Source: Verrucomicrobiaceae bacterium (lineage in GTDB: Bacteria > Verrucomicrobiota > Verrucomicrobiia > Verrucomicrobiales > Verrucomicrobiaceae). Taken from it: a stretch of 64,000 bases of DNA. This document shows positions 11,362 through 37,514 of the stretch, in pieces. The notes beneath the pieces are model-generated. The model did no database searches and was not told the origin of the DNA. It was given only the letters and a program-made list of their open reading frames with translations. A program made the position numbers and the translations under genes. The stretch's first letter is position 1, and each line of letters begins with the position of its first letter. The stretch is taken from positions 124,001 to 188,000 of the forward strand of contig JAIXYN010000014.1 in NCBI GenBank assembly GCA_027490195.1, given 5' to 3'.

Positions 11362-12831
11362 TCAAGCAAACAGCTTCGTCACCGGCTTGGCTTTCACCAG
11401 CTCACGCGGCTGGTTGAGATGATTGTAAACAATCGTCTCGGGGTCGATGCCGACGGCGTGGTAGATGGTCGCGAGGAGCTCGGTCGGATGCACGGCGTCT
11501 TCAGCAGGGGCGGAGCCGGTGGCGTCCGATTTGCCGTGGACGTAGCCGCGCTTGATGCCGGCACCGCCGACGATGGCGGTGTAGCAGTATGGCCAGTGGT
11601 CACGACCGTCGGCGCTGTTGCCATTGCCGCTGGTGGACACGCCTTTTTCCGGGCTGCGACCGAATTCGCCAAGGGCCACAACGATGGTCTCGTCCAGCAG
11701 GCCACTGGCGTCCAGATCGTCAAACAAAGCGCTGAGGCCTTGGTCGAGCATCGGGCCGGACTTGGTCTTCATACGCTCGGTGAGGCCGACGTGGTGATCC
11801 CAGGAGTGGTTGTCGGAGTTGGCAACCTTGGGCCAGATGACTTCGACGACGCGGGTGCCGGCTTCGAGCAGGCGGCGGGCAAGCAGGCAGCTCTGACCGA
11901 AGGTGTTGCGGCCATAGCGGTCACGCAGTTTTTCAGGCTCACGGTCCAGGGCGAAGGCATCGCGCGCCCTGCCGCTGGAGATGAGGTTCAAGGCCTGGCT
12001 GTAGTAGCTGTCCAGGCTCATGTCCTTCACGGCAGCTTCGATCTGCGGCATCTGATCGTTGATAGCATCGCGCAGCTTGGCACGGCGCTCAAGACGCACA
12101 CTGAAGAGGTCGGGGCGCAGTTGGAGATCGTCGATCTTGATGCGGTCCATCTTGCCCATGTCGAGGTCATCGCCATCGGGGAAGAGCGTGTACGGCTCGT
12201 AGGCCTTGCCAAGGAAACCGGCACCACCGCCTTTGCCCACGACGTTCGATTCCTGCAACGGACGTGGCAACTGTACGAAGGGAAGCATTGGCTCCTGCAG
12301 CGGCTTGAGGCGCACGATGTTGCTGCCGAAGTTCGGGAAGTCTTTGGCGTTCGGTGGCTCAAGCTGGCCGGAGGGGCTGACCTTGTCGGTCGTATAGCCG
12401 GTCATGATTTGATAGATCGCCGCCGTGTGGTTGAAGAGACCATTCGGTGTGTAACTCATCGAATTGATCATGGTGAACTTGTCGTTCACCTTCGCGAGGC
12501 CCGGCAGGATCTCAGTGAAGTGCTTGCCGGGAACTTTCGTCGGGATCGTTTTGAAAGCGCTGCGCACCTTGTCCGGCACATTTTCCTTCGGGTCCCACAG
12601 GTCCAGATGGCTGGGGCCGCCTTGCAGATAAATCATGAGTACATGCTTGGCCTTGCCCCATCCTGCACGACCTGCGTTCGGAGAGGCTGCCGCCATGGCC
12701 TGGCCACGGAGGACGTTGTTGAGCGTGAGGCCCATCATGGAGCCACCGCCCACGCGCAGAATGTCACGGCGCGAGAAGCCGAGATTTTTGTCGCAAAGGT
12801 CTTTGCCGGGAACGCCTGGGATGCGGAACAT
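11362..12831 (-). CDS. DUF1501 (sulfatase-like) secreted protein
   Basis: A 489-aa protein of the DUF1501 family, alkaline-phosphatase/sulfatase-like proteins abundant in Planctomycetes and Verrucomicrobia. The N-terminus carries a Tat signal ([12 protein letters not shown], about residues 19-30), so it is exported folded. Family marks are [66 protein letters not shown] and [15 protein letters not shown], which hold the Asp and His metal ligands expected for this fold. DUF1501 genes usually sit beside a DUF1549/DUF1553 gene; here the neighbour is a PEP-CTERM gene and the nearest such partner starts at 21964. It ends in its own terminator. Substrate unknown. Confidence 0.88.
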
Positions 12832-18703: not shown

Positions 18704-21700
18704 TCAATCCTCAAACATGAACTCGTTGCTCATCAGCAGCACTTGCGCGAGCTGGCTGAGGGAGCTCTGGGGCCGGGCGCGGCCGATGGGCCAGCGGCTG
18801 GCGTCGCAGAAGTCGTTTTTGGAATGGGTGAGCACTTCGCCGGTGTCGGCGCGGCTGATGGTGGGCTGCCAGTCGAAGCTGTCGCTGTCGGTGCCGCCTT
18901 CGTTGTGAACGATGAAGTAGAGAGTGTCGCCGCGTTTCACGTCGGTGGTGAGCAGGACGGGGACTTTCTTGTTCTGCGGGGTGCAAAGCTGTTCGGCCAG
19001 GATGCCGGTGCGCTCATTGTAAATCCAGGCGCGGACGCCATCGCCACGCTCACTGTTGCGGCTGAGTACGCTGTCGATGAAGACCTTCATGTCGGTCGGC
19101 ACATGCCAGCGGGTGGTGACAACGTATTCGCTGGGGGCGGAGTGTGCGCCGTAGTTGGCCCAGAAGGCATGACCCCATTTAGGATCCGGGATTTTGGGGC
19201 CGGGGCTCCAGACTTTCTGGCCGCCGCCACCGCGATCTGTCAACTGCGTAAAAGCTTGGAATTCGGTGAAGGAAGGCTTGCCTTCGGGAGTGCGAGTGAA
19301 CTTCATCGAGCCGTAGCTCCAGCGGAAGGGCTTATCGGCATTGAGCGCGGTGGCATCAGCCGCGAAGCGCTGGGCCAGTTCGACTTCATCTGGCTTCGGA
19401 TCGCGGGCCAGCACGCGGCGGTACATCGCGCGGATGGCTTCTGAATCGAGCGTAGTGCCTGCCTGCGGTGTCTCTTTGGCGATGGCATCGGCACGGGCAC
19501 GCATGAAGGGGCTGTTCATCAAAAAGAGCGCCTGCTGCGGCACGGTGGTGTTGAAGCGCTGCGGGCTGTGGCCGTCCGGATTGGCGAAGTCAAACATCGC
19601 AGGCACGCTGGCCTGATCGTAGCGGTCCACTTTCAGATAAACGGTGCGCAGGGTGTCAGCTTCCTTCGCATTCAGCTCCACGGGACGTCCACCATGCTTA
19701 TGCATATCCAGTTCGCCGGTGGCTGACAGAATGGCATCGCGCATCGTTTCATAATCGAGGCGCTGACGGTTGAAGCGGCTGAGCAGATCGTTCTCAGCGT
19801 CTTTCGTGGCTTTTTCCGGCGTGGCATGGCTGCTCTGCTGGAACGTGCGCGAGGTGAGGATCAGCGTGTGAAGCTTCTTCAAGCTCCAGCCGTTTTCCAT
19901 GAAGGTGGCGGCGAGGTAGTCGAGGAGATCTGCCTGCACGGGCTTTGAGGTCTGCACACCGAAATCGCTGGTCTGAGAAACGAGCGGCTTGCCGAAATGC
20001 TGCAGCCACACGCGGTTCACAATGACGCGCGCGGTGAGCGGATTGTCCTTGTTGGCGATGTGCTTGGCGAGTTCGAGACGGCCGCTGCCGTCGGTGAATT
20101 TTTCGCCGCCGAACATCGTGAGCCACGCACGCGGTGCGGGATCGCCCTGCCGCGCCGGATTGCCGCGGATATAGACGCGAACGTCCTGCGGCTTCGGTTT
20201 GTCCACCATCACCATGGCGCGTGGCGGCGCGCCGGGATGGGTGCTGTCGAGTTTGGTGCGCTCGTTGTTGAGCTTCACCACAGTCTCGCTGTCCTTGCGG
20301 GTGAAGAAGGCATTGGCACCTTCCACCGGCACCGACATGGGCGAATGCTTGTCCTGCATGAGCTGACGCATGGGCTCCACCTTGCTGTCGAGAATGATGC
20401 GTGCGTAGGCCACGGCGACCTCCTTCATCGACCTCGGAGGCGACTGCACGAAGGCGGCGGCGATCTCCGGCGTGCAGCCGCTTTCCGGTTTGGCCAGCTC
20501 TTGCGCAATGGCTGTAGATTTAGCGGCAAACTCCGCCTCAGGAAGTTTGGAGAAGCGATTCCAGGCAACCATCGTCGCGTGAGGCTTCGCACTTAAAGCG
20601 TAGCGATTCAGGAAATCGCGCCATTGAGTGGCCACACGGTCACGCAGCTTCATCTGACCGGCCTTGCCTATGAAAACAGTGGTATCTTTGATGGCCACGG
20701 AATCTTGGGCGAATGCGAGGTATTCAGCCAGACGCTCCGGTTTGCGGAACTCGTCATAGACGGTGCGTTTGAAGTCGAGTTCCTTCTTCGCGATTTCGGC
20801 CGCCTTGGCATCGTAGTCTTGGCCATCCTTTTCGTTCGCCGCCTTGCCGATGATGGGCATCACGGTGTCATCCGGTTCGTCGCTGCTGTTCAGGATGCTG
20901 TACATCGCATAGTAGTCACGGCTCGGGATCGGATCGAATTTGTGATCGTGGCAGCGTGCGCAGGCAACTGTGAGACCGAGGAGGCCGCGGCCGATGACAT
21001 CGATGCGGTCATCAGCGATGAGCAGGCGGTCATTGATGAAGCGCTCGCCGACGTTGTAGAAGCCCAACGCCGCGAGATTGGGCGAATTGGGTGTGGCTGA
21101 GGTCATGCGGTCCGCCGCGAGCTGATAGCTCACGAACTGGTCGTAGGGCATGTCATCGTTCAGAGCCTTCACGATCCAGTCGCGGTAGGTGTAGGCAAAA
21201 GGGTAGTAGTTGCTGCGGCCAGCCACCTGGTAGCCATTCGTGTCGGCATAGCGCACCACATCCAGCCAGAAGCGCGCCCAGCGCTCGCCATAGGAAGGTT
21301 GGGAGAGGAGATGTGGGATCAGCGTCTGAGGAGTCGGATTCTTCTGCAAATCGTCAAAAGTCGGCGGCAATCCGGTGAGCGTGAGGTGGATGCGGCGCGT
21401 CAGCGTGGCAGGCTCGGCAGGTGCGGCGAAATCGAGTCCGGCAGCCTTGAGTTTTTCACCCACAAATGCGTCGATGGGATTGCCGGTGAAACCAGCAGGC
21501 AGCGCAGGTTTTTGCACCGGCTTGTACGCCCAGTGCTGCATCGGGTCCGCTTTGGTGTGTTCAGCCACAACGGCCTCCACCGGCCATGGCAGGCCCATGC
21601 TGATCCACTTTTCGATCGCCGCGATCTGCGGAGCAGGCAGCTTTTCACCCTTCTTGGGCATCGCCTCGACACCTGCGACGTGGTTGATGGCCTTGATCAG

Positions 21701-21964
21701 CTTGCTGGCGCTCGGATTGCCGGCTTCCACAACCTTGCCGTAATCGCTGCCTTGAATGACAGCCGCTCTCGAGTCGAGACGCAGGCCGTTTTGATGCTTG
21801 TGTGAGCCGTGGCAATCGTAGCAGCGCTCCGCGAGCACGGGACGGATGTTTTTCTCAAAGAACTCGATTTGGTCAGGCGGAAAGGTCTCGGCGGCTGATG
21901 CAAGGGAACTTGCGACGGCAAGGCCGCCCAAAACGAGAGAGGGAAACTGGAAACGCAGGGTCAT
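18704..21964 (-). CDS. PSCyt1-DUF1549-DUF1553 (PSD1) secreted cytochrome protein
   Basis: A 1086-aa exported protein of the type expanded in Planctomycetes and Verrucomicrobia. A signal peptide (1-25) precedes a cytochrome c-like PSCyt1 domain with heme site C48YDCH52 (ERCYDCHGSHKHQNGLRLDS). DUF1549 follows (NPIDAFVGEKLKAAGL, RFWLDVVRYADTNGY, YDQFVSYQLAADRM), and DUF1553 occupies the C-terminal half (NPLTARVIVNRVWLQHFG, FMENGWSLKKLHTLILTSR, QRLDYETMRDAIL, LLMSNEFMFED end). These proteins are usually paired with a DUF1501 gene. No such partner is adjacent; the two DUF1501 genes of the window start at 12831 and 31130. A role in polysaccharide breakdown is widely proposed but unproven. Confidence 0.9.
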   Translation of the reverse strand: MTLRFQFPSLVLGGLAVASSLASAAETFPPDQIEFFEKNIRPVLAERCYDCHGSHKHQNGLRLDSRAAVIQGSDYGKVVEAGNPSASKLIKAINHVAGVEAMPKKGEKLPAPQIAAIEKWISMGLPWPVEAVVAEHTKADPMQHWAYKPVQKPALPAGFTGNPIDAFVGEKLKAAGLDFAAPAEPATLTRRIHLTLTGLPPTFDDLQKNPTPQTLIPHLLSQPSYGERWARFWLDVVRYADTNGYQVAGRSNYYPFAYTYRDWIVKALNDDMPYDQFVSYQLAADRMTSATPNSPNLAALGFYNVGERFINDRLLIADDRIDVIGRGLLGLTVACARCHDHKFDPIPSRDYYAMYSILNSSDEPDDTVMPIIGKAANEKDGQDYDAKAAEIAKKELDFKRTVYDEFRKPERLAEYLAFAQDSVAIKDTTVFIGKAGQMKLRDRVATQWRDFLNRYALSAKPHATMVAWNRFSKLPEAEFAAKSTAIAQELAKPESGCTPEIAAAFVQSPPRSMKEVAVAYARIILDSKVEPMRQLMQDKHSPMSVPVEGANAFFTRKDSETVVKLNNERTKLDSTHPGAPPRAMVMVDKPKPQDVRVYIRGNPARQGDPAPRAWLTMFGGEKFTDGSGRLELAKHIANKDNPLTARVIVNRVWLQHFGKPLVSQTSDFGVQTSKPVQADLLDYLAATFMENGWSLKKLHTLILTSRTFQQSSHATPEKATKDAENDLLSRFNRQRLDYETMRDAILSATGELDMHKHGGRPVELNAKEADTLRTVYLKVDRYDQASVPAMFDFANPDGHSPQRFNTTVPQQALFLMNSPFMRARADAIAKETPQAGTTLDSEAIRAMYRRVLARDPKPDEVELAQRFAADATALNADKPFRWSYGSMKFTRTPEGKPSFTEFQAFTQLTDRGGGGQKVWSPGPKIPDPKWGHAFWANYGAHSAPSEYVVTTRWHVPTDMKVFIDSVLSRNSERGDGVRAWIYNERTGILAEQLCTPQNKKVPVLLTTDVKRGDTLYFIVHNEGGTDSDSFDWQPTISRADTGEVLTHSKNDFCDASRWPIGRARPQSSLSQLAQVLLMSNEFMFED

Positions 21965-27547: not shown

Positions 27548-28540
27548 TTACTTTTTCACAACCCAGATATTGCGGTAGCGGACTGGATTGCCGTGGTTCT
27601 GGAGGTGGACCGGACCCGGCGTTGGGGCCTCTTTATTGGGGGCTGAGGTCGTTGCGCCGGGCAGTTCCTGATTCTCGTGAATCAGCACGCCGTTGTGTTT
27701 GACCGTGATCTTTGCATTCGCGGTTTTCTGGCCTCCGGCATCGTATTTGGCAGCGATGAAGTCGATGTCATAGGTTTGCCAGGTCAGTGGAGGAAGGCAC
27801 ATGTTCACCTTTGGAGAAGCGATTTTGTAAAGCCCGCCGCACTCGTTGTCCTTGCCTTCGAGGGCGAAGCTGTCAAGCATCTGCACCTCGTAGCGGCCTT
27901 GCAGATAGAGGCCGCTGTTGCCCCGGCCCTGACCTCGGGCATCGGGCGTGTAGGGCAGGAGGAACTCCGCATGCAGGCTGCAATCGCCAAAGGTGTCTTC
28001 GCTGGTGATGCCCTCCATCAGAGCGCCGATTTTCTCATCCACACGCGAATTGGGGAAACGGTTCACGCCCTTGCCATCAAACAGCACCACCGCGTTCTCC
28101 GGTGGCTGGGCACCCAGGGTGGGCGATGCGCGGTTCGTGCGGTTAAGCTCCATGATTTTCAGCCCGTCGGCATTGTTCACCAGGATGCTGGTGCCGTTTA
28201 CCTCGGCCTTGATGCTCCCGTCTGGCGAGGTGAACGAGGCATTCTTTTCGCCTGCGGCGCGTGCGCCGATCACTCGGGTGATCGTGCTTCGATCACCATC
28301 CCACCCCGCGCCCGGCAGGCCGCCGAGATGGCTCACAGCCTCAAATTTGCCGCCGCCCTGCGCCCAGATTTGCACCCCGTAGGACTTGCCGTCAATTTCA
28401 CCGATATACTCGCCCTGAATCGCAAAATCCTCGTCCGTCTGTGCCGGATCGGTGAAGGCCTTCGGTTTCGGCTTTGGCGCAGCAGGCTGCTGGGCATGAA
28501 TGACTGTGGCAAACAGAAGGGTGGTGAGGATGAGGCGCAT
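27548..28540 (-). CDS. DUF1080 (3-keto-disaccharide hydrolase-like) secreted protein
   Basis: A 330-aa exported protein. A signal peptide (1-16, ending in VIHA) and a Pro/Lys linker precede a concanavalin-like DUF1080 domain. Marks are NAVVLFDGKGVNRF, FGDCSLHAEFLLPYTPDARG, GNSGLYLQGRYEVQMLDSF, TWQTYDIDFIAAKYD and GPVHLQNHGNPVRYRNIWV, the last being the typical C-terminal signature. Family members in Planctomycetes and Verrucomicrobia act on 3-keto sugars or other glycans; the substrate here is unknown. It lies just upstream of ftsQ on the same strand, but the 195-nt gap with its own regulatory features suggests separate transcription. Confidence 0.85.
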   Translation of the reverse strand: MRLILTTLLFATVIHAQQPAAPKPKPKAFTDPAQTDEDFAIQGEYIGEIDGKSYGVQIWAQGGGKFEAVSHLGGLPGAGWDGDRSTITRVIGARAAGEKNASFTSPDGSIKAEVNGTSILVNNADGLKIMELNRTNRASPTLGAQPPENAVVLFDGKGVNRFPNSRVDEKIGALMEGITSEDTFGDCSLHAEFLLPYTPDARGQGRGNSGLYLQGRYEVQMLDSFALEGKDNECGGLYKIASPKVNMCLPPLTWQTYDIDFIAAKYDAGGQKTANAKITVKHNGVLIHENQELPGATTSAPNKEAPTPGPVHLQNHGNPVRYRNIWVVKK

Positions 28541-28693
28541 GGTGGGTAAATCTGGCAAGAGTACTGGTTTGCGCCAGTTCTTCGAGAACACCTGAACTCA
28601 AGGCGGCTGGATTGTGGAACGGGGAGTAACTTCCTCGTCACCGCTTCGGGCAAACAATCCAAATCTCCCGCCGCAGGCAGCACTGGCCTAGGA

Positions 28694-28989: not shown

Positions 28990-29403
28990 TTAAGGCACCT
29001 TCACGCCCACCAACTTCAATCCAGGTACATCCTTGAAGTCCTTCTCATTGGCGGTGAGCAGGGTGAAGTCTCTCTGAATGGACTGGGCTGCCAGCCATAG
29101 ATCTTGAATGCGAAAATCTGCACCTCGGCCCGTTTGGCTAAGCTGGGCGGCGATCATGCCGAAGACCTCTGCTGTCTCGCCAGTGATGCGGAGAAGGGGT
29201 TTGCGGCGCATGCGGCGAAGGGTGGTCATGGCACGCTGCTTCTGCTTACCGTTCTTCATCAGGTCGATACCGAAACGAATTTCGGCAATGTTGACGGGTG
29301 AGAGATAGATCGGTGATTGCCTGGTGACCGCATGAATGTCTGCAGCGCTGAGCTTGCCGCGCTCAATGGCGATCCAGAGGTTCGTGTCGATCAGAAAGCC
29401 CAT
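28990..29403 (-). CDS. VapC-type PIN-domain toxin
   Basis: A 137-aa PIN-domain ribonuclease, toxin of a type II toxin-antitoxin pair. The acidic metal-binding residues are Asp6 (FLIDTNLWI), Glu41 (NIAEIRFGI), and Asp96/Asp101 (GADFRIQDLWLAAQS), with the conserved LLTANEKDF near the end. Targets of this family are usually tRNA or rRNA. It starts inside the antitoxin gene (13-nt overlap), so translation is coupled. Confidence 0.88.
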   Translation of the reverse strand: MGFLIDTNLWIAIERGKLSAADIHAVTRQSPIYLSPVNIAEIRFGIDLMKNGKQKQRAMTTLRRMRRKPLLRITGETAEVFGMIAAQLSQTGRGADFRIQDLWLAAQSIQRDFTLLTANEKDFKDVPGLKLVGVKVP

Positions 29404-29666
29404 GGATTGCGCAACTCGTTGAGGCTACCGCGTTTAGTGTTCTTGCTGGAATGGACGGCTTCGGCCAGAGCATCTGCCGTCTCATCATCAAGCGTGCGGT
29501 AGAGGTCGCCGAGGAATTCCAAGGCATTTTGTGCCTGTGGCTCGGGTATAAGCCGTGCGACTGGCTTGTGATTCCTCATGAGCACGATCTCCTCCTGGTC
29601 GGCTTCGACACCACTCATGACAGAACTGAAGTTTCGGGCCACCTCGGTGACGGTCAGCGTTTTCAT
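29391..29666 (-). CDS. Phd/YefM-family antitoxin
   Basis: A 91-aa antitoxin. The N-terminal DNA-binding part (MKTLTVTEVARNFSSVMSGV, then EEIVLMRNHKPVARLIPEP) is the Phd/YefM fold, and the charged C-terminal part would bind and block the PIN toxin. It precedes the toxin gene with overlap. A palindrome lies 12 nt upstream of its start codon, fitting autorepression by the antitoxin/toxin complex. Confidence 0.88.
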   Translation of the reverse strand: MKTLTVTEVARNFSSVMSGVEADQEEIVLMRNHKPVARLIPEPQAQNALEFLGDLYRTLDDETADALAEAVHSSKNTKRGSLNELRNPWAF

Positions 29667-29729: not shown

Positions 29730-31130
29730 TCAAACCAACTCACGCAACGGCGCACCCTGATCCACGATGAAGTTGGGCCTGCCTTGATGATCGGTGTAGG
29801 TCGCATCAAGCGGGACACCCATGTGCTGGTAGATGGTGGCGGCGAGGTCGCCGGGGGTGACGGGGCGTTCGTCGATCTGGCCGCCGTCTTTGTCAGAGGA
29901 GCCGATGACTTGGCCGTGACGGAAGCCGCCGCCGGCGAGGGACATGGACATGACGTGCGGCCAGTGGTTGCGACCGTCGGTGCTGCCCTGTGTTCCGAGT
30001 GTGGGCGTGCGGCCAAACTCGCCCATGGTGATGACCAGGGTATCGTCGAGCATGCCGCGTTCGGCGAGGTCGCTGACGAGCGTGGTTATCACGTGATCGA
30101 ACACTGGCAGCAGCGGGCGCAGTCCATTCCAGATGCCACCGTAGGGTGGGATGTTGTCGCCGTGATTGTCCCAGGTGCCGGAGGCGCTGTGATTGCTGAG
30201 ATCAATGGTGACGAAGGATGAGCCGCGCTCCACGAGCCGACGTGCGAGCAGCGCCTGCTTGGCCCAGTCATGCTCGCCGTAGCGATCGCGAACTTTTTGT
30301 GGTTCCTTGCTGAGATCAAAAGCCTCCTGGGCCCGGCCGCCGGCGACGATGTCGAAGGCGGTCTGCGAGAAGCTGTCCATGGCGCTCATCATGCCGCTGG
30401 CATCGATCTCTGAGCGCAGGCCATCCATTTGCCGGCTCAGCGTCTGGCGTGATTGAAGGCGGTCCATGCTGAGGCCGGAGGGAAGCTGGAAGAGCTTTGT
30501 GGCGCTGCTGCCGTCGAAGGGATCATACTGCGTGCCGAGATAGCCGCCCCATGCGACGTGCGAGCGCGATTTCATGTTGAGCACGACATAGGGCGGCATG
30601 GATGGATGATTCGCCCCGTGATGCTTTGCCACAATGCTGCCGAATGATGGGTAGTACTTCGCCTTTGGATTGGTGCGCGGCTCATTGGCGAGATTTGCGG
30701 TCTGCATGACCATGTTGGGCTCATGATTGCTGAAGCGGCAGTCCACCGAGCGGATGAGTGTGAACTTATCGAGCATGGCGGCTTGCTTGGGCAAATACTC
30801 GCAGATGTGCGTACCGGGCAGCTTGGTGGGGATCGTTTTGAAGGGGCCGCGAATCTCACGCGGGCGGTCGGGCTTCGGGTCCCAGGTGTCGATCTGCGAG
30901 GGGCCGCCGGTCATCCAGAGCAGGATCACCGATTTGCCGCCTTTCGTGACTTTGCCTTCTGCGCGCAGCTTCATGAGCGCAGGCAGGGTGAGGCCGCCCA
31001 GGCCTGCGAGGCTTGTTTTCAAAACCGAGCGCCGACTGTGGACGACCACGCCATCCCGCACACGCGGGTTCATGAACGTGAATGCATGCGGGGCGCTGTG
31101 GCCGGAGCAGGGATGATCGGGAGATGACAT
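29730..31130 (-). CDS. DUF1501 (sulfatase-like) secreted protein
   Basis: A second, distinct DUF1501 protein (466 aa). A Tat-type signal (HSRRSVLKTSLAGLGG, about residues 31-46) sits behind a longer leader. Family segments are VILLWMTGGPSQIDTWDPKP, FTLIRSVDCRFSNHEPN, FVTIDLSNHSASGTWDNHGDN, LVITMGEFGRTP and GRNHWPHVMSMSLAGGG. It follows the giant ceramidase-cytochrome gene by 61 nt on the same strand, so the two are probably co-transcribed and may act on one substrate, in place of the more common DUF1549/DUF1553 partner. A start further inside is possible, since the first 20 residues are not conserved in the family. Confidence 0.88.
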   Translation of the reverse strand: MSSPDHPCSGHSAPHAFTFMNPRVRDGVVVHSRRSVLKTSLAGLGGLTLPALMKLRAEGKVTKGGKSVILLWMTGGPSQIDTWDPKPDRPREIRGPFKTIPTKLPGTHICEYLPKQAAMLDKFTLIRSVDCRFSNHEPNMVMQTANLANEPRTNPKAKYYPSFGSIVAKHHGANHPSMPPYVVLNMKSRSHVAWGGYLGTQYDPFDGSSATKLFQLPSGLSMDRLQSRQTLSRQMDGLRSEIDASGMMSAMDSFSQTAFDIVAGGRAQEAFDLSKEPQKVRDRYGEHDWAKQALLARRLVERGSSFVTIDLSNHSASGTWDNHGDNIPPYGGIWNGLRPLLPVFDHVITTLVSDLAERGMLDDTLVITMGEFGRTPTLGTQGSTDGRNHWPHVMSMSLAGGGFRHGQVIGSSDKDGGQIDERPVTPGDLAATIYQHMGVPLDATYTDHQGRPNFIVDQGAPLRELV

Positions 31131-31191
31131 CGGAGTTCAATACGCAGAGCCATGAGTAACTCTAACCGCACACTTCAAATCCACTTTGCAT

Positions 31192-34100
31192 TCACTTCGG
31201 CACCTTCAGATACGCGATCAAATCCGCCAGGGACTGCGGCGTGAGCGCGGCTTCGAGGCCTTCGGGCATCAGGGAGGTGCCCGTGCTCTGCAAACTGGCG
31301 ATCTCGCTGCGCAGCACGGACTTCGTCAGGTTTCCCGCCAGCTTCAGCGTGAGGCTAGCGCTCGTTTCCGTGGCGATGACTCCATAGAGCTGTTCGCCGC
31401 TTTTGAGCGTGCAGTTGTACGCCATGAATCCGGGCTCGATGATCGCGCTTGGGTCGAGGATGGAGTTCATGAGTTTCTCCGCATCATGCTGTACCACGCT
31501 GCGCAGATCAGGGCCCAGCTCGATGCCAACACCGTCCAGTTTGTGGCAGCTGATGCACACCTGAGCAAACATCGCCTTGCCCTTGGTCGCGTCGCCCATC
31601 AGCTTCAGGGCTGGTTTGAACTTCTCGACCACTGCTGCGCGTGTGGCGCTCGTGGCATCTGCAAACACGGCGGATGCCTGCTTTGCGATTTCCTTTTTCG
31701 GGTGTTTCGTCAGCCGTGCGCGCAGCGCTGCGTCACATGCTTTTGCCTCGGGCCGCTTCAGCAGCGCCAGAGTCCATGCGTCATTGGAGAGCAGGGTCTC
31801 GATGATCTGCATCCGCACAGTAGGTGTTCGTTCATTCCAGCCAGCTAGCAGGAATTCGGGTCCGTCCTTGGGCTGCAGTTTTGCCACCAAACGCAGCACT
31901 TCGGTGCTTGCAGACTTCTTCCAGAGTTCTGGCAGCAGCGTCTTCACCATTTCGCGATGTTCACGGTCTGAGGCCAGGAGCGCCAGATCTTCCATGTGAG
32001 TGGCCCCCTTGGCTGCTTTGACTTTCTCTGCTGCCGTGTGGAGCAGGTCCGCCATTTTCTTTAATCCTTGCTGTGCTTCTGCTGACGTCACCTGTCGCGT
32101 GAGCTCGGACAGTGAGAGGCCTTTTTCATCAAGGACAGTGAGAAGCTCTGCGGCATGCATCTTTGCTTCCAGGTGTGACAGCAGTGCGGCGAGCGCGGGC
32201 TCATTTTTCACTGCCAAAGCGCATTGAAAGAGCATGCCGATGACGCGGTTGTTTTCCGGCTCCGCTCTCTCAGGGAAACTTTTGCAAACACCTTCCAAAT
32301 GAGGCACCACCGAACTCAGTGCTGCGCCTTGAAGAGAGGAACCTGCTGGGGCCGCATGCAGCTGTTGCGCCAGCAGATCAGCCGCCCAGTCTCCTTTTAG
32401 TTCACCGAGGGTGCAGGCCAGTTGAAGCTGCACTTTCTCGTCCTTGTCGTTCACGAGATGAGCCAGTGTTTTTTGCAGTGATGATGATTCGTTGTCTTTC
32501 CAATCCAGTTTCTCCGCCATTTGCAATGCCTGCTCACGCACCCGTGGCGATTCATGCCGCAGGAGTGCCAGGCACGCATCGTTGGTTAGTTTGACTTGTT
32601 GAAGAGCAAGCCAGCCTGACTGCGCGGTGGCCGCTGGATTCGTGTTCGGTTGCAATGAATTGAGGGCTTCGTTCAGCGCAGGTTCGCTGTTCAGCCATGA
32701 AAGCTGCATTTGTGTTTTGTCTCTGAGCCAGCCATTCGAGCTGTTCAGCCAAGACTCCCATGCCTCAGGCCATTTCGTTATTTCATCTTTCTTTGGTGTC
32801 TTGACCACCTTCCAAATCCTGCCCTTGTCATCCCCTACGCGGTAATGCGGCAGCAGTTCGTCCTTGCCGTTCTGCGGTAGCCACTGTGGGTGCTCGATCA
32901 TGTAGCGGTACATGTCTGCCACCCACAGTGCGCCATCGGGTCCGGTGCGGACCATGACGGGGCGGCACCAGCGGTCTTCGCTGGCGAGGAAGTCCATCTT
33001 TGACTCGGCGGGATCGCGCACGGCTTTGAAAGTGACGCCGTCGTCTTCGAGAATGTGATGCTGCACGACGTTGTGGAAGGGCTCGCAGGTGAAGGCGTGG
33101 GTTTTGCCATCGTCGAACAGCATGCGGTCGCGATACACTTCGATGCCGCAGGCGCTGGTGAAGCGACCGGCTTGATCGAAGCTGTGAAAGCGCTTCTCCA
33201 TGCTGCTGGCGGGATAGACGGGCGGATTGCGCGGGAAGAGCTGGTGGATCGGGTCGGGCGGGATGACGTGCGGATTGCGGCGCAGGTAGTGGTCCTGCAG
33301 CACGTAGTGCCAGAGCGGAAAGCTGTTCTGCACGCCGAACCAGTGGCCCCAGTCATCGTGCGCACGACCAAACTGCGAGGGGCCGCTTTGTGGATCAAAC
33401 TCGCCCGTGTCCGGCTTGAAGCGGAAATCGCGGCTGCCGAGGTCGATCTTTTGGCCGGTGAGCTTGGATTCAATCTGCGTGCCTTTGTTGTAGCCGCCGT
33501 GATGCGCGCCCGCTGCGCAGTAGACCCAGCCGTCCATGCCCCAGCGCAGGCCGTTGACGCGGAGTTGCTGATTGCCCGTGCTGAAGCCGGTGAAGAGCAC
33601 CTGCTTTTCGCCGTTCGGCTTGATGAAGAAAATGTCCGGCGCGGCGGTCACGATGACGCCATCGCGCCAGGTCAGGATGCCGGTGGGATAGCTAAGATCA
33701 TTCACGATGACCGTGCGCTTGTCGTAGCGGCCATCGGCGTTGGTGTCTTCGAGCATCACCACGCGTCCGCCGGCTTTGCCGTTGCCGTCCATGCCCAGGG
33801 GGTAGTCGGCCATCTCGATGACCCATAGTCGTCCCTTTTCATCCCAGTCAAAGGCCACGGGATCCAGCACCACGGGCTCTGCTGCGACGAGTTCGATGCG
33901 GTAGCCCTCGTGCAGATGCCACTTCTTCGCTGACTCTTCGGGTGAGAGCGGTGGTGTGGCGGTTTGCAGTTTGGCGGGCGCGGGTGGCGCCATGCCGCTG
34001 GCTTTGTAATGCGCTGCCGTTTCATCTGCGGTGAGCGCGTCATTGTAGAAGGCTACTTCGTCGATCTTGCCTTCGAAATTGAACAGGTTGTCGCTGCGCC

Positions 34101-36099
34101 CGCCGATGAACCATTGGTCCTTGGGCGTGTGAGTGATGTCGAGTTCACCTTCGATCTCAGGTTTGCCGTCCAGAAACACCTGGAGCCGTTTTCCGGAGCG
34201 GTTTAATACCACGTGATGCCATTGCTTGAGTGCCAGCTTGGTGTTGCCTGAGATCAGGCCCTTCGCAGAGTTGCCATTGTAAAGGAACAGGCAGCCTGAT
34301 GTGGCATCGGCTTGCGTGCCACCGATGCCGAGATGGTCTCCGGGGCAGGTCTTGTCGCCATCTGGGCCACGGGAAAACAGATAGCCAGTCACTGCACGTG
34401 CATCTGTGGGCAGAGCATTCCAGAACCAGAACTCCACGCTGTAGTCGCTGCCGGTCATTGGAAAACCGTCCACGCGGCCTCCTGCAAAGTGGGGTGCGCG
34501 ATTGATGCCCTTGCCGGAGAAGGCCTCGCCCTGCGGTCCTTCCAGATAGCGGGCGACACGGGGCTCGTAGTGTGGCCCTTCGCCGCGCCAGTCATTGACG
34601 GGATAGAGTGAGTCGCCTGCGATTTCGTCCATGCGCCAGTACGATGTGGGATTGGAAGCCAAGACGGCCTGCGGGTAAGAGCCCAGAGTGTGGGTGATGA
34701 TCTGGCGGTTTTTGCCCGTGATCTCCTCCAGGGCATCGAGCAGTGTTTCGACCATCTTCGGCTCTGCCTGCACTTCGAGGCCTGCGGTGCGTGCCGGCCA
34801 GGTGGTGTAGCCGCCCAGCGCGTGCTGCTCGGGTGGCGGGATGTAGCCTTCGCCGCCATTGGCGAGTTCGATGTTGATCGTGGTCGGCAGCGGGCTTTGC
34901 GCCTTCAACTTGAGGCCGGTGATGGCATACACTTCATTTGGCAGCGTGGTGATGGCCAGATCGCCGATGCGGATGGCCTGCAGTTTGATCTGCGTGTTCT
35001 GCCGTTCGTGCAGAATGAGAGCCTCACGTGCATACACCTCTTGCTTGTCCTTCGGAACATCGTTCACGATCTTCGCTGCAATGGGCCGCGCCCAGGCAAG
35101 GCGTTTTTCATCCGGCACGCGGTAGTTCAGCGTGAGCAACTTTTCCGCCATCGCGATGGGGGCTTGTTTCTGATGCTGAATTATTGCGTAAGCCTCCATG
35201 GCTTTCTTTGCCACTTCTTCGGCATACGCATCCATGGTGATCTGCGGGCGTGGCTTGCTGTAGTCCATCCATTGCTGATCGCCGCTGGTGCCCTGCGTCA
35301 TCGCGGCGACAAACTCCGGCCCCTCGCTGCTGCTTTGTTTCAAGAGTTTTGCGATGTGTCGTGCGAAGGCGCCGTAGTAGTCCGACGAGATCGCCTTTGC
35401 CCCGAAGTAATGCATCGAGTAGTTGGCAAAGAACGCCATCGGTTTGCCGTCCGTAGTTTGGACTGAGATGACTGACAAACCAGGATCCGACGGCCCGGAA
35501 GGTCCGGTGACATAGGGGCTCTCGTGCCCAGGGTGCATGTTTGCGCGTGCGGTGAGTTCACCGAAGGGATCAGCGATCATTTTGTCCGGCTTGCGGATCC
35601 AGCGCCGTGTGTGCGTGTGCTCCCAGTCATCCACTACGCCCCAGCCGATCTTGGCAGGTAGCAAACGCTTGTGTGCGGTCACGATGCCTTCGGCGATCTT
35701 TGGCACGAGGAACTTGGCGTAGTCCACATCCAGCCGCGTGCCGAGGCAACCCATGGCCGCTGGGGCCGAATGTGTGTGGGTAGCGGAGACGAGCATGCGA
35801 TCCGTCGGAATGCTCGTTTGAGTGCTCGCCAGGGCCTTGGCTTCATCAATCAGCGAACGCGTCATCATGCACGTGTCCACGATGACGATCGCGATCTGCG
35901 TTTTGCCATCGTCCAGCACCAAGCTGCGCGTGTGTAGCTTGTCGGTGATCGTTGACGACTGAGCCTCGATGAATCCGCCTGCGATGATCCGTGGGAAAGT
36001 CGTCGGCGTGATGTCGATGGCGGAGACGCCTGCGCGGAAAGTCGGTTGCGCCTGTGCGGTGATGGCAGCGAGGCCGAGAAAAAGCAGGAGGGACTTCAT
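31192..36099 (-). CDS. Giant secreted fusion: neutral ceramidase-like, LamG, PVC-type heme dehydrogenase, HEAT repeats, cytochrome c
   Basis: A 1635-aa exported protein. A signal peptide (1-17) is followed by an alkaline/neutral-ceramidase-like domain (about 20-450) with SATHTHSAPAAMG and FANYSMHYFGAKAIS, and a LamG/concanavalin-like domain (about 485-700, GSDYSVEFWFWNALP). A PVC-type membrane-bound dehydrogenase propeller spans about 720-1075 (HEGYRIELVAAEPVVLDP, DWDEKGRLWVIEMADYP, WVADMYRYMIEHPQW). Helical HEAT-like repeats (about 1150-1490) and a C-terminal cytochrome c (CISCH at about 1513) complete it, ending in LADLIAYLKVPK. The ATG at 36099 is preferred over a TTG at 36117. The PVC heme part is known from Planctomycetes/Verrucomicrobia; a ceramidase-like front end is what stands out. 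The substrate is unknown. Confidence 0.88.
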   Translation of the reverse strand: MKSLLLFLGLAAITAQAQPTFRAGVSAIDITPTTFPRIIAGGFIEAQSSTITDKLHTRSLVLDDGKTQIAIVIVDTCMMTRSLIDEAKALASTQTSIPTDRMLVSATHTHSAPAAMGCLGTRLDVDYAKFLVPKIAEGIVTAHKRLLPAKIGWGVVDDWEHTHTRRWIRKPDKMIADPFGELTARANMHPGHESPYVTGPSGPSDPGLSVISVQTTDGKPMAFFANYSMHYFGAKAISSDYYGAFARHIAKLLKQSSSEGPEFVAAMTQGTSGDQQWMDYSKPRPQITMDAYAEEVAKKAMEAYAIIQHQKQAPIAMAEKLLTLNYRVPDEKRLAWARPIAAKIVNDVPKDKQEVYAREALILHERQNTQIKLQAIRIGDLAITTLPNEVYAITGLKLKAQSPLPTTINIELANGGEGYIPPPEQHALGGYTTWPARTAGLEVQAEPKMVETLLDALEEITGKNRQIITHTLGSYPQAVLASNPTSYWRMDEIAGDSLYPVNDWRGEGPHYEPRVARYLEGPQGEAFSGKGINRAPHFAGGRVDGFPMTGSDYSVEFWFWNALPTDARAVTGYLFSRGPDGDKTCPGDHLGIGGTQADATSGCLFLYNGNSAKGLISGNTKLALKQWHHVVLNRSGKRLQVFLDGKPEIEGELDITHTPKDQWFIGGRSDNLFNFEGKIDEVAFYNDALTADETAAHYKASGMAPPAPAKLQTATPPLSPEESAKKWHLHEGYRIELVAAEPVVLDPVAFDWDEKGRLWVIEMADYPLGMDGNGKAGGRVVMLEDTNADGRYDKRTVIVNDLSYPTGILTWRDGVIVTAAPDIFFIKPNGEKQVLFTGFSTGNQQLRVNGLRWGMDGWVYCAAGAHHGGYNKGTQIESKLTGQKIDLGSRDFRFKPDTGEFDPQSGPSQFGRAHDDWGHWFGVQNSFPLWHYVLQDHYLRRNPHVIPPDPIHQLFPRNPPVYPASSMEKRFHSFDQAGRFTSACGIEVYRDRMLFDDGKTHAFTCEPFHNVVQHHILEDDGVTFKAVRDPAESKMDFLASEDRWCRPVMVRTGPDGALWVADMYRYMIEHPQWLPQNGKDELLPHYRVGDDKGRIWKVVKTPKKDEITKWPEAWESWLNSSNGWLRDKTQMQLSWLNSEPALNEALNSLQPNTNPAATAQSGWLALQQVKLTNDACLALLRHESPRVREQALQMAEKLDWKDNESSSLQKTLAHLVNDKDEKVQLQLACTLGELKGDWAADLLAQQLHAAPAGSSLQGAALSSVVPHLEGVCKSFPERAEPENNRVIGMLFQCALAVKNEPALAALLSHLEAKMHAAELLTVLDEKGLSLSELTRQVTSAEAQQGLKKMADLLHTAAEKVKAAKGATHMEDLALLASDREHREMVKTLLPELWKKSASTEVLRLVAKLQPKDGPEFLLAGWNERTPTVRMQIIETLLSNDAWTLALLKRPEAKACDAALRARLTKHPKKEIAKQASAVFADATSATRAAVVEKFKPALKLMGDATKGKAMFAQVCISCHKLDGVGIELGPDLRSVVQHDAEKLMNSILDPSAIIEPGFMAYNCTLKSGEQLYGVIATETSASLTLKLAGNLTKSVLRSEIASLQSTGTSLMPEGLEAALTPQSLADLIAYLKVPK

Positions 36100-36148
36100 G
36101 AGATTGGCTGAAACCAACGCTCATGAAGTTCCATTGCTTGCCTTTCGA

Positions 36149-37438
36149 TCAGGCGATCAGCGGGCCGATGGCAGGCTCGGCGAGCAACCTTTGCACTTCT
36201 TCAACTAGGCCGGTCACGGGCACTGAGCTCTGTGAGCGTGCGAGCAGGTTCTTGATGACGACCTCGGGGTATTCGGCACCGAAGACAATGGCGAAACGGG
36301 CTTTGCGGTCCTCGGCGGCTTGAAACTGCTTGCCGGCTTTTTGAGCGCCAAAGCTGTAGTCGATGCGGATGCCTGCGGCACGCAGGGCCTGCACGGCGGC
36401 GAGCGCGTGAGGGCGCTGTGCTTCGTCCACAACCACGACGTAGGCATCGATGCTGCTGGCAGCCAGCAGGGCGCAGGTGAGCTTCATTTGCGCGCCGGGG
36501 GTCTTTTCGAGAAGCAGTTTGAGCACCACGTCGCCCATGGCGAAACCTGCGGCGGGCATGTCCACCTTGCCGTCGCTCATCAGGGAGCAGAGCTTGTCAT
36601 AGCGGCCGCCGCCGGCCACGGCGCGGAGGCCGTGCTTGCGGTCGAATACTTCAAATACGGTGCCCGTGTAATAGGCCAGGCCGCGAACGATGGTGGCATC
36701 GATGCGGACGTGCTGCCAGATGCCGCGTGCAGTGAGGTTTTCGCGCAGTGCGGCGAAGGCCGGGTGATTTTCATCGGCGGAGGCCATGAAGGTGCGCACA
36801 TCCGCCAGCGTGAGGCCGATGCCATTGAGCTTCTTCTCCGTCTCTTCGGAACGGGCACGCTCGATCTTGTCGATGATCTGGAGGAAGGTGGGCGTGTGTT
36901 CGGCGGTGATGTTGAACTGGGCCAGGAAGCCGTTCCAGATTTCGCGGTTGCTAAGGCGGATTTCGAAGTCCTCCGAGCTGACGCCAAACTCGCGCATCAC
37001 GTCAATGGCCATCGCGATCAGTTCTGCATCCGTTGCAGGCGAGGCATCGCCAAGGATGTCGGCATTGAACTGTACAAACTCGCGCGTGCGTCCTGCCTGC
37101 GGCGCCTCATAGCGGAAGCAGGAGCCGATTTGAAACCACTTGATGGGTTTCTTGAAGTCACGCTGACGTGCGGTGGCCATGCGTGCCAGGGAAGGGGTCA
37201 CCTCCGGGCGCAGGGAGACATCATCCTTGCCTTGAGTGGTGAAACAAAAAAGCTGGCTGGTGATCTCGTCACCGCTCTTCTTGCGAAACAGGTCAGTGTT
37301 CTCAAGCACCGGGCCTTCATACTCCATGAAACCATAGCGGCGTGCGACGGAGCGCCAGGTGTCGAAAATGTAATTACGCACGGCGCATTCTTCAGGGAAG
37401 AAGTCACGAAAGCCTTTGACTGTTTGGATGGGTTCCAT
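36149..37438 (-). CDS. hisS: Histidyl-tRNA synthetase
   Basis: A 429-aa class II aminoacyl-tRNA synthetase that charges tRNA-His. Motif 2 is GSCFRYEAPQAGRTREF, the HisRS-specific stretch is RGLAYYTGTVFEVFDR, and motif 3 lies in GGGRYDKL with FAMGDVVLKLLL. The C-terminal anticodon-binding domain is present (AYVVVVDEAQRPHALAAVQ). The start at 37438 (MEPIQTVKGFRDFFPEE) is the standard HisRS N-terminus; the frame extends further upstream without family sequence. Divergent from recF with 76 nt between starts. Confidence 0.95.
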   Translation of the reverse strand: MEPIQTVKGFRDFFPEECAVRNYIFDTWRSVARRYGFMEYEGPVLENTDLFRKKSGDEITSQLFCFTTQGKDDVSLRPEVTPSLARMATARQRDFKKPIKWFQIGSCFRYEAPQAGRTREFVQFNADILGDASPATDAELIAMAIDVMREFGVSSEDFEIRLSNREIWNGFLAQFNITAEHTPTFLQIIDKIERARSEETEKKLNGIGLTLADVRTFMASADENHPAFAALRENLTARGIWQHVRIDATIVRGLAYYTGTVFEVFDRKHGLRAVAGGGRYDKLCSLMSDGKVDMPAAGFAMGDVVLKLLLEKTPGAQMKLTCALLAASSIDAYVVVVDEAQRPHALAAVQALRAAGIRIDYSFGAQKAGKQFQAAEDRKARFAIVFGAEYPEVVIKNLLARSQSSVPVTGLVEEVQRLLAEPAIGPLIA

Positions 37439-37514
37439 AGAGGGGCGGGATTCATCTTCATGCCACTCAGGTACGCAACCGGAAATGCGGTGGGTGACGT
37501 AACCTCCTGATTGC

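Follow-up and report, generated by a model that had tools for sequence, protein, structure and literature searches.

The gene described here encodes an exported protein of 1,635 residues in which a ceramidase-like domain and a LamG domain precede the propeller, HEAT region, and cytochrome c of the PVC-type redox proteins, and we see it as a variant of those proteins, not as a system of a new kind. It lies in a 64,000-nucleotide stretch of DNA from a Verrucomicrobiaceae bacterium, referred to below as the window. The fusion is a widespread Verrucomicrobia architecture and apparently an undescribed one. What is new is that, as judged from sequence comparison, about the first 300 residues of the ceramidase-like domain have a history unlike that of the rest of the gene.

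RESULTS

Domain organization of the fusion protein

The fusion gene and its domains are as follows; CER denotes the ceramidase-like domain and DH the DUF7133/TIGR02604 propeller.

31192..36099, minus strand: fusion gene, 1,635 aa (signal peptide, CER, LamG, DUF7133 propeller, HEAT, cytochrome c)
34690..36051, minus strand: ceramidase-like domain CER, aa 17-470 (Pfam; structural match to 2ZWS)
34021..34461, minus strand: LamG/concanavalin-like domain, aa 547-693 (Pfam Laminin_G_3, 60.2 bits)
32800..33945, minus strand: DUF7133/TIGR02604 beta-propeller, aa 719-1100 (Pfam DUF7133, 473.4 bits)
32344..32571, minus strand: HEAT_2 match, aa 1177-1252, within a helical region of about aa 1110-1490 (26.4 bits)
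31204..31596, minus strand: cytochrome c domain TIGR02603, aa 1502-1632 (NCBIfam, 129.1 bits; cut-off, 68.15)

The minus-strand reading frame may start at a TTG (31192-36117) or at the ATG that gives the 1,635-residue protein (31192-36099). Its N-terminus, MKSLLLFLGLAAITAQAQ, reads by eye as a Sec signal peptide, in keeping with the export proposed in the first-pass annotation. Pfam and NCBIfam profiles recover all the domains named in that annotation, in the named order and on one chain. Ceramidase_alk (PF04734) matches aa 21-274 at 46.6 bits (cut-off, 32.1), TIGR02604 scores 260.5 bits against an NCBIfam cut-off of 122.2, and Pfam Cytochrom_C matches aa 1505-1631 at 27.8 bits. HEAT_2 falls slightly below its Pfam cut-off of 27.7; the predicted model nevertheless shows helices across this region, and designed HEAT-like repeats match its profile.

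TIGR02604 followed by TIGR02603, each above its NCBIfam cut-off, is the order of the PVC-type CxxCH proteins (TIGR02604, HEAT, and TIGR02603), and the C-terminal half of the fusion has the same domains in the same order. One of these proteins, the verrucomicrobial Lac161_ORF7, by its published description consists of three domains, with no ceramidase or LamG part (PMC5342196).

Between the window and its relatives at L039, L038, L041, L054, and L045, pN/pS is 0.05 to 0.10 for the DH and cytochrome domains, 0.07 to 0.37 for CER, and 0.25 to 0.64 for HEAT; against the more distant L055 it is 0.105 for DH, 0.159 for the cytochrome, and 0.365 for CER. The fusion protein is under purifying selection, and the low pN/pS values, together with the recurrence of the domain order in other genomes, identify the fusion as a real gene.

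The ceramidase-like domain

In the predicted model of the CER-LamG part (pLDDT 83), CER superimposes on the Pseudomonas aeruginosa neutral ceramidase 2ZWS with a VIA Z score of 34.1 (rmsd 3.6, 394 residues aligned) and on the human enzyme 4WGK with a Z score of 31.8, and the best three VIA matches of the CER-LamG model are all neutral ceramidases. The fold is the same, with 17 to 18% identity in the structural alignment. Profile alignment places the following zinc and pocket residues.

35770..35778, minus strand: H108 and H110, zinc ligand H97 and pocket H99 of the P. aeruginosa ceramidase (alignment to 2ZWS/4WGK)
35605..35607, minus strand: R165, R160 of 2ZWS (R257 in human by inference; alignment to the Pseudomonas chain only)
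35410..35412, minus strand: H230, zinc ligand H204 of 2ZWS
34933..34935, minus strand: E389, zinc ligand E411 of 2ZWS
34843..34845, minus strand: Y419, zinc ligand Y448 of 2ZWS
34807..34809, minus strand: Y431, Y460 of 2ZWS and Y591 in human

The numbering used here for the Pseudomonas enzyme agrees with the aligned chain positions; for Ser274 it does so with an offset of 24. Whether the zinc site is intact had been a question for the first-pass annotation, and the zinc-binding residues are all present: none of the seven zinc and pocket residues varies among the 44 CER domains from frames of at least 1,290 aa ("fused" in these counts refers to this frame length), among the 10 close ones from shorter frames, or among the 24 rows of a CER alignment. 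Domains covering less than 85% of the model were excluded, identical ones were counted once, and six divergent ones (scores up to 400) were kept apart. Among these six, the arginine is kept in four, the second zinc histidine in five, and the other five residues in all.

For human neutral ceramidase, a review describes critical roles for H196, R257, Y579, and Y591 and a role for Ser354 in stabilizing the position of Arg257 (PMC6952831). The equivalents of the four critical residues are invariant in the fusion CER domains. Ser is present in 0 of 54 close CER domains at the column of Ser274/Ser354, which is occupied by Met, His, Gln, Trp, Ala, Asn, or Tyr, as placed by a profile alignment whose local register is uncertain; Ser occurs there in one of the six divergent domains. 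An invariant Ser in a GTSGD motif lies four residues before this column in the close domains and could take the place of Ser274/Ser354, given a one-residue gap. In the ceramidases this serine sits in a G[DN]xSPN motif.

The NCBIfam neutral ceramidase equivalog NF041649 scores 23.3 bits against a cut-off of 1200, and the Ceramidase_alk model is matched over its N-terminal half only (1-253 of 509). Because Ser is absent from the aligned ceramidase column and the equivalog score is far below its cut-off, we call the domain ceramidase-like and do not assign it as a ceramidase. The same features make it improbable that CER is a true lipid enzyme, cleaving ceramide or another N-acyl lipid, with the redox half acting on the lipid so released or on its glycan headgroup. 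The ceramidase fold and the retention of all seven zinc and pocket residues are what such an enzyme would have, but the equivalog score, the half-length Pfam match with LamG following it, and the lack of Ser at the 274/354 column in all 54 close domains speak against it, as do the neighbors of informative family, among which sulfatase and PSCyt genes occur at some loci and no lipid gene was recognized. We give very little credence to the opposite proposal, that CER is an inactive binding module that travels with the redox half; it would account for the absence of Ser from the expected column and for the faster evolution of CER than of the propeller in five of six comparisons, but it fits poorly with catalytic and ligand residues that do not vary in any of the 44 long-frame domains and with a CER pN/pS of at most 0.37.

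LamG, propeller, and cytochrome

The LamG model matches domain 4 of the arabinanase AbnA (VIA Z 22.3), a domain also solved with arabino-oligosaccharide. In the predicted model of the C-terminal half (mean pLDDT 75.9), the best VIA match of the propeller is the PQQ sugar dehydrogenase 3a9g (Z 23.6, rmsd 3.3, 281 residues aligned). The top six matches are PQQ-type or putative sugar dehydrogenases, DFPase-type propellers come next at Z 21.2, and the fungal AA12 pyranose dehydrogenase 6h7t, at Z 20.8, has the same six-bladed fold. The likeness is one of fold, with degenerate motifs and no sequence-profile match: DUF7133 has no convincing hhalign match to the GSDH profiles of its own genome (probability 6.8, from shallow alignments), and the propeller alone finds nothing in the PDB by phmmer at E <= 1. 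AA12 enzymes also carry a cytochrome and a sugar-binding module; the heme in this PQQ/AA12 comparison is of the b type, and that of the fusion is of the c type.

The three GSDH proteins of the same genome have an invariant propeller His, and in soluble glucose dehydrogenase H144 and R228 are functionally important. None of 19 distinct rows from fused genes has a His in the stretch aligned to the GSDH His. Among the listed propeller rows from frames without CER, with duplicate and gappy rows omitted, 19 of 25 have a His at one of two neighboring columns; L014, L025, L031, L033, and L036 are counted here as lacking CER since the stretch examined shows no CER domain. Of the six rows without this His, L014 comes from a fused gene at a contig end, being its far half, the stand-alone propeller at L044 shares the fused-gene sequence type, and L088 has a His two columns earlier. 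At the presumed PQQ-binding Arg motif, the window propeller reads GVQNS where the three GSDHs have GxRNP, in a register that hhalign did not confirm. A propeller without the His of most of its paralogs can be called a dehydrogenase only putatively.

The heme-binding residues of the cytochrome are as follows.

31543..31557, minus strand: CISCH heme-binding motif, aa 1515-1519, invariant in 24 of 24 cytochrome rows
31267-31269, minus strand: distal Met M1611, aligned to M292 of Kustd1711, invariant in 24 of 24 rows

Among solved structures, the fusion cytochrome is closest in sequence to the C-terminal domain of Kustd1711 of Kuenenia (7ZS0), which has CxxCH and Met, with M292 as the Met ligand (PMC11791136), and also matches in fold. 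Kustd1711 is a separate diheme protein; the fusion carries a single heme, at the terminus of a large enzyme. By this alignment, the heme c site (CxxCH plus Met) is complete.

The first-pass annotation proposed that the fusion and the DUF1501 gene could together oxidize a substrate and feed electrons to the cytochrome. The complete heme site favors this, the lack of the His found in 19 of the 25 CER-less rows counts against it, and we regard it as possible. A competing reading has the propeller half as a glycosidase-like or binding module and not a dehydrogenase, with the cytochrome serving in redox sensing or docking. It draws on the sole experimental precedent that we found for this half, the hydrolysis of lactose by purified Lac161_ORF7 (PMC5342196), and also on the His distribution between fused and CER-less rows and on the DFPase-type propellers scoring almost as high as the PQQ enzymes. 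The composition of the six best structural matches and a heme site complete in 24 of 24 rows run contrary to it, and we consider it doubtful, though worth keeping in view.

Distribution and variants

The fusion of a ceramidase-like front end to the redox half had been thought unusual, and this did not hold: it is common in the order. Within the genus, 43 of 48 genomes match some part of the fusion protein at E <= 1e-100, and within the family 54 of 68 match it at E <= 1e-150; some well-assembled genus and family members, such as G001, G002, and G059 (99% completeness), have no match at E <= 1e-150. In the order, a CER-domain query matches 133 of 288 genomes at E <= 1e-90, and by hand count at least 61 of the 288 hold CER in a frame of at least 1,479 aa, including G159, with two internal stops in its frame, and G009, whose frame ends before the cytochrome. 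A profile search for CER, LamG, DH, and cytochrome (HEAT being outside this search) confirmed their order in four families:

family f1: loci L063-L067
family f2: loci L068, L069, and L073
family f3: loci L072 and L075
family f4: loci L070, L071, and L074

Across the phylum, the CER domain finds a match at E <= 1e-100 in 10 of 387 genomes; frames longer than 1,600 aa occur in five, all from f1 or f2, and the other five have frames of 501 to 903 aa, too short for the fusion. A scan of genome contigs gave 18 loci. Four full fusions at 47 to 51% identity are in records titled as Verrucomicrobiales, Opitutae, or Akkermansia MAGs, and the fusion may possibly reach beyond its own order if these titles are correct. 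At L049 and L051 (titled Planctomycetota and Planctomycetales) and L050 (Verrucomicrobia), CER-LamG is found with no DH or cytochrome gene in the stretches examined, so no split version of the pair is seen there. L052 and L053, both near contig ends, likewise have CER-LamG without the remaining domains in the stretch examined.

Many genus members have two LamG segments (frames of 1,797 to 1,961 aa). The longest variants, of 2,134 and 2,170 aa, are in f4 at L070 (6213-12614) and L071 (6643-13152), and both have a second, divergent CER domain after the cytochrome that is absent from L074 of the same family. The genome of the window also has a stand-alone CER-LamG paralog, 48% identical over residues 6-695, and stand-alone DH-cytochrome paralogs. 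At L046 (7992-13324, in G009), the frame stops within the HEAT region after 1,479 aa, and the cytochrome is in an overlapping second frame, which is either a frameshift or a true split.

Common as it is, the domain order appears not to have been characterized: no published description was found, and among the open-license PMC papers listed, no title or abstract describes the fusion. The multidomain PSCyt/PSD proteins of freshwater Verrucomicrobia likewise join cytochrome domains to LamG-type modules, and their functions are described as unknown (PMC5615132); their cytochrome families differ from that of the fusion. The word "ceramidase" has no occurrence in the main text of that paper.

Mosaic history of the CER front end

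The gene was compared at 28 related loci, given by 30 rows, with the repeated row of L123 counted once and likewise L055 and L116, which are the same contig; 18 of the 28 were taken into trees. The window and L039 share a CER type (94% identical; G026 is also 94% identical to the window) that is 67 to 74% identical to those of seven other loci, themselves 85 to 93% identical. Along CER, the window and L038 are 45 to 80% identical in segments before about residue 300 and 83 to 92% after it, which delimits the following segment.

35152-36051, minus strand: first ~300 residues of CER, with a history unlike the rest of the gene

The tree of the first 300 codons sets the window and L039 apart from the others (100/100) and rejects (p-AU 2.7e-48) a grouping of the window with L041, L045, and L046, as the neighboring hisS gene would suggest. 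The DH tree rejects the pairing of the window with L039 (p-AU 0.0002); there the window groups best with L045 and L046, with weak support (75/77). Between the window and L045, Ks is 0.43 for DH, 0.37 for DUF1501, and 1.44 for CER, and the HEAT regions are 35% identical. For most of the species pairs compared, divergence is greater in CER and HEAT than in DH, cytochrome, and DUF1501. On these trees and distances, domain-scale replacement by recombination would explain the history of the CER front end, which seems to have been swapped between species; a donor was not found among the sequences compared.

The hisS gene beside the fusion (36149-37441 in the window, and at L039, L038, L041, L045, L046, and L054) occurs in two types, 97 to 98% identical within and 82 to 83% between across the seven loci. 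These types do not simply track the DUF1501 or DH distances, and perhaps hisS has also been replaced by recombination.

Genomic neighborhood

The following genes of the window were considered with the fusion.

29730..31130, minus strand: DUF1501 gene, 466 aa, twin-arginine-like N-terminus by eye (307 bits)
28990-29666, minus strand: PIN-domain gene (28990-29403) and a preceding small ORF
27548..28591, minus strand: 3-keto-disaccharide hydrolase (DUF1080-type) gene (113.5 bits)
18704-21964, minus strand: PSCyt1-PSCyt2-PSD1 gene
11362-12831, minus strand: second DUF1501 gene

The gene pair named in the first-pass annotation is real as an adjacency, the DUF1501 gene following the fusion after 61 nt (31131-31191). 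A DUF1501 gene 92 to 96% identical to that of the window follows the fusion at 8 of the 28 related loci, the window included; among the 20 where none is seen, the contig ends too early in G037, G010, and G028. The genome of the window (G000, 7.0 Mb) has 93 DUF1501 matches, 32 TIGR02603 matches (31 over the cut-off), and 15 Ceramidase_alk matches (7 over the cut-off). With 93 DUF1501 copies in the genome, adjacency alone carries little meaning, and the case for a functional partnership is weak. Clustering of CER with DUF1501 genes in this genome was considered and set aside (5 of 15 within 5 kb, against at most ~15% of the genome; binomial p of ~0.06 by hand estimate), and CER lies near TIGR02603 genes at 2 of 14 non-fused loci in the same genome (within 6 kb), which is not beyond chance.

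The downstream 3-keto-disaccharide hydrolase gene of the window recurs at L039, L040, L041, L045, L046, and L054, at the last of these immediately after DUF1501. In the window, the PIN-domain gene and the small ORF, which by eye looks like an antitoxin, are situated between DUF1501 and the hydrolase gene and are presumably a VapBC-like pair.

A neighbor scan of 20 proteins at 12 loci found sulfatases beside the fusion at two loci (L044, and L065, which has two), PSCyt and DUF1501 genes at two (L044 and L064), and an acetyl-xylan-esterase-like gene at one (L042). At L044, the row reads fusion, DH-HEAT-cytochrome gene, sulfatase, PSCyt1-PSCyt2-LamG-PSD1 gene, DUF1501. Neighbors at several loci have no glycan link (SecDF, EF-G, an S13 peptidase, a GntR regulator, an amine oxidase, or a protein of no family). 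A function read from the neighbors was set aside: they vary between loci, so only a leaning toward glycans is kept. Indirect support for a glycan context comes from the sulfatases at 2 of 12 loci, the nearby 3-keto-disaccharide hydrolase gene in close relatives, and the lactose hydrolysis by Lac161_ORF7.

DISCUSSION

The reading that we tentatively favor is that the fusion is an exported enzyme of modular build, present mainly in Verrucomicrobiales-type genomes, and that outside the cytoplasm it acts on a substrate linked to carbohydrate. LamG, to judge from its fold, would bind a glycan. CER, with one zinc held by two His, a Glu, and a Tyr, would then cleave an amide or comparable acyl bond, such as one that attaches an N-acyl group to an amino sugar or a glycolipid. 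The propeller may bind or convert the freed sugar, either by oxidation with electrons passing to the fused heme c or by assisted cleavage, and the C-terminal cytochrome, whose CxxCH and Met are present, would hand electrons to the respiratory chain. The glycan substrate, the N-acyl hydrolysis, and the electron flow are what we infer from the parts. In the species compared, the propeller-cytochrome core is nearly constant, and the CER front end, the number of LamG segments, and HEAT vary, as expected if these set the substrate.

It is a bolder and, in our estimation, unlikely proposal that the fusion represents a new self-contained enzyme class, coupling zinc-dependent N-acyl removal to a redox propeller wired to its own cytochrome, with a substrate range changed by front-end swaps between species. 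If that were so, one family would go further still, with the second ceramidase-like domain at the C-terminus in L070 and L071.

PVC bacteria have many DUF1501, PSCyt, and TIGR02603 genes without known function. A redox module joined in one chain to a hydrolase whose zinc site can be read would offer a direct handle on the substrates of such systems, and the apparently swapped front end points to where substrate specificity may be located.
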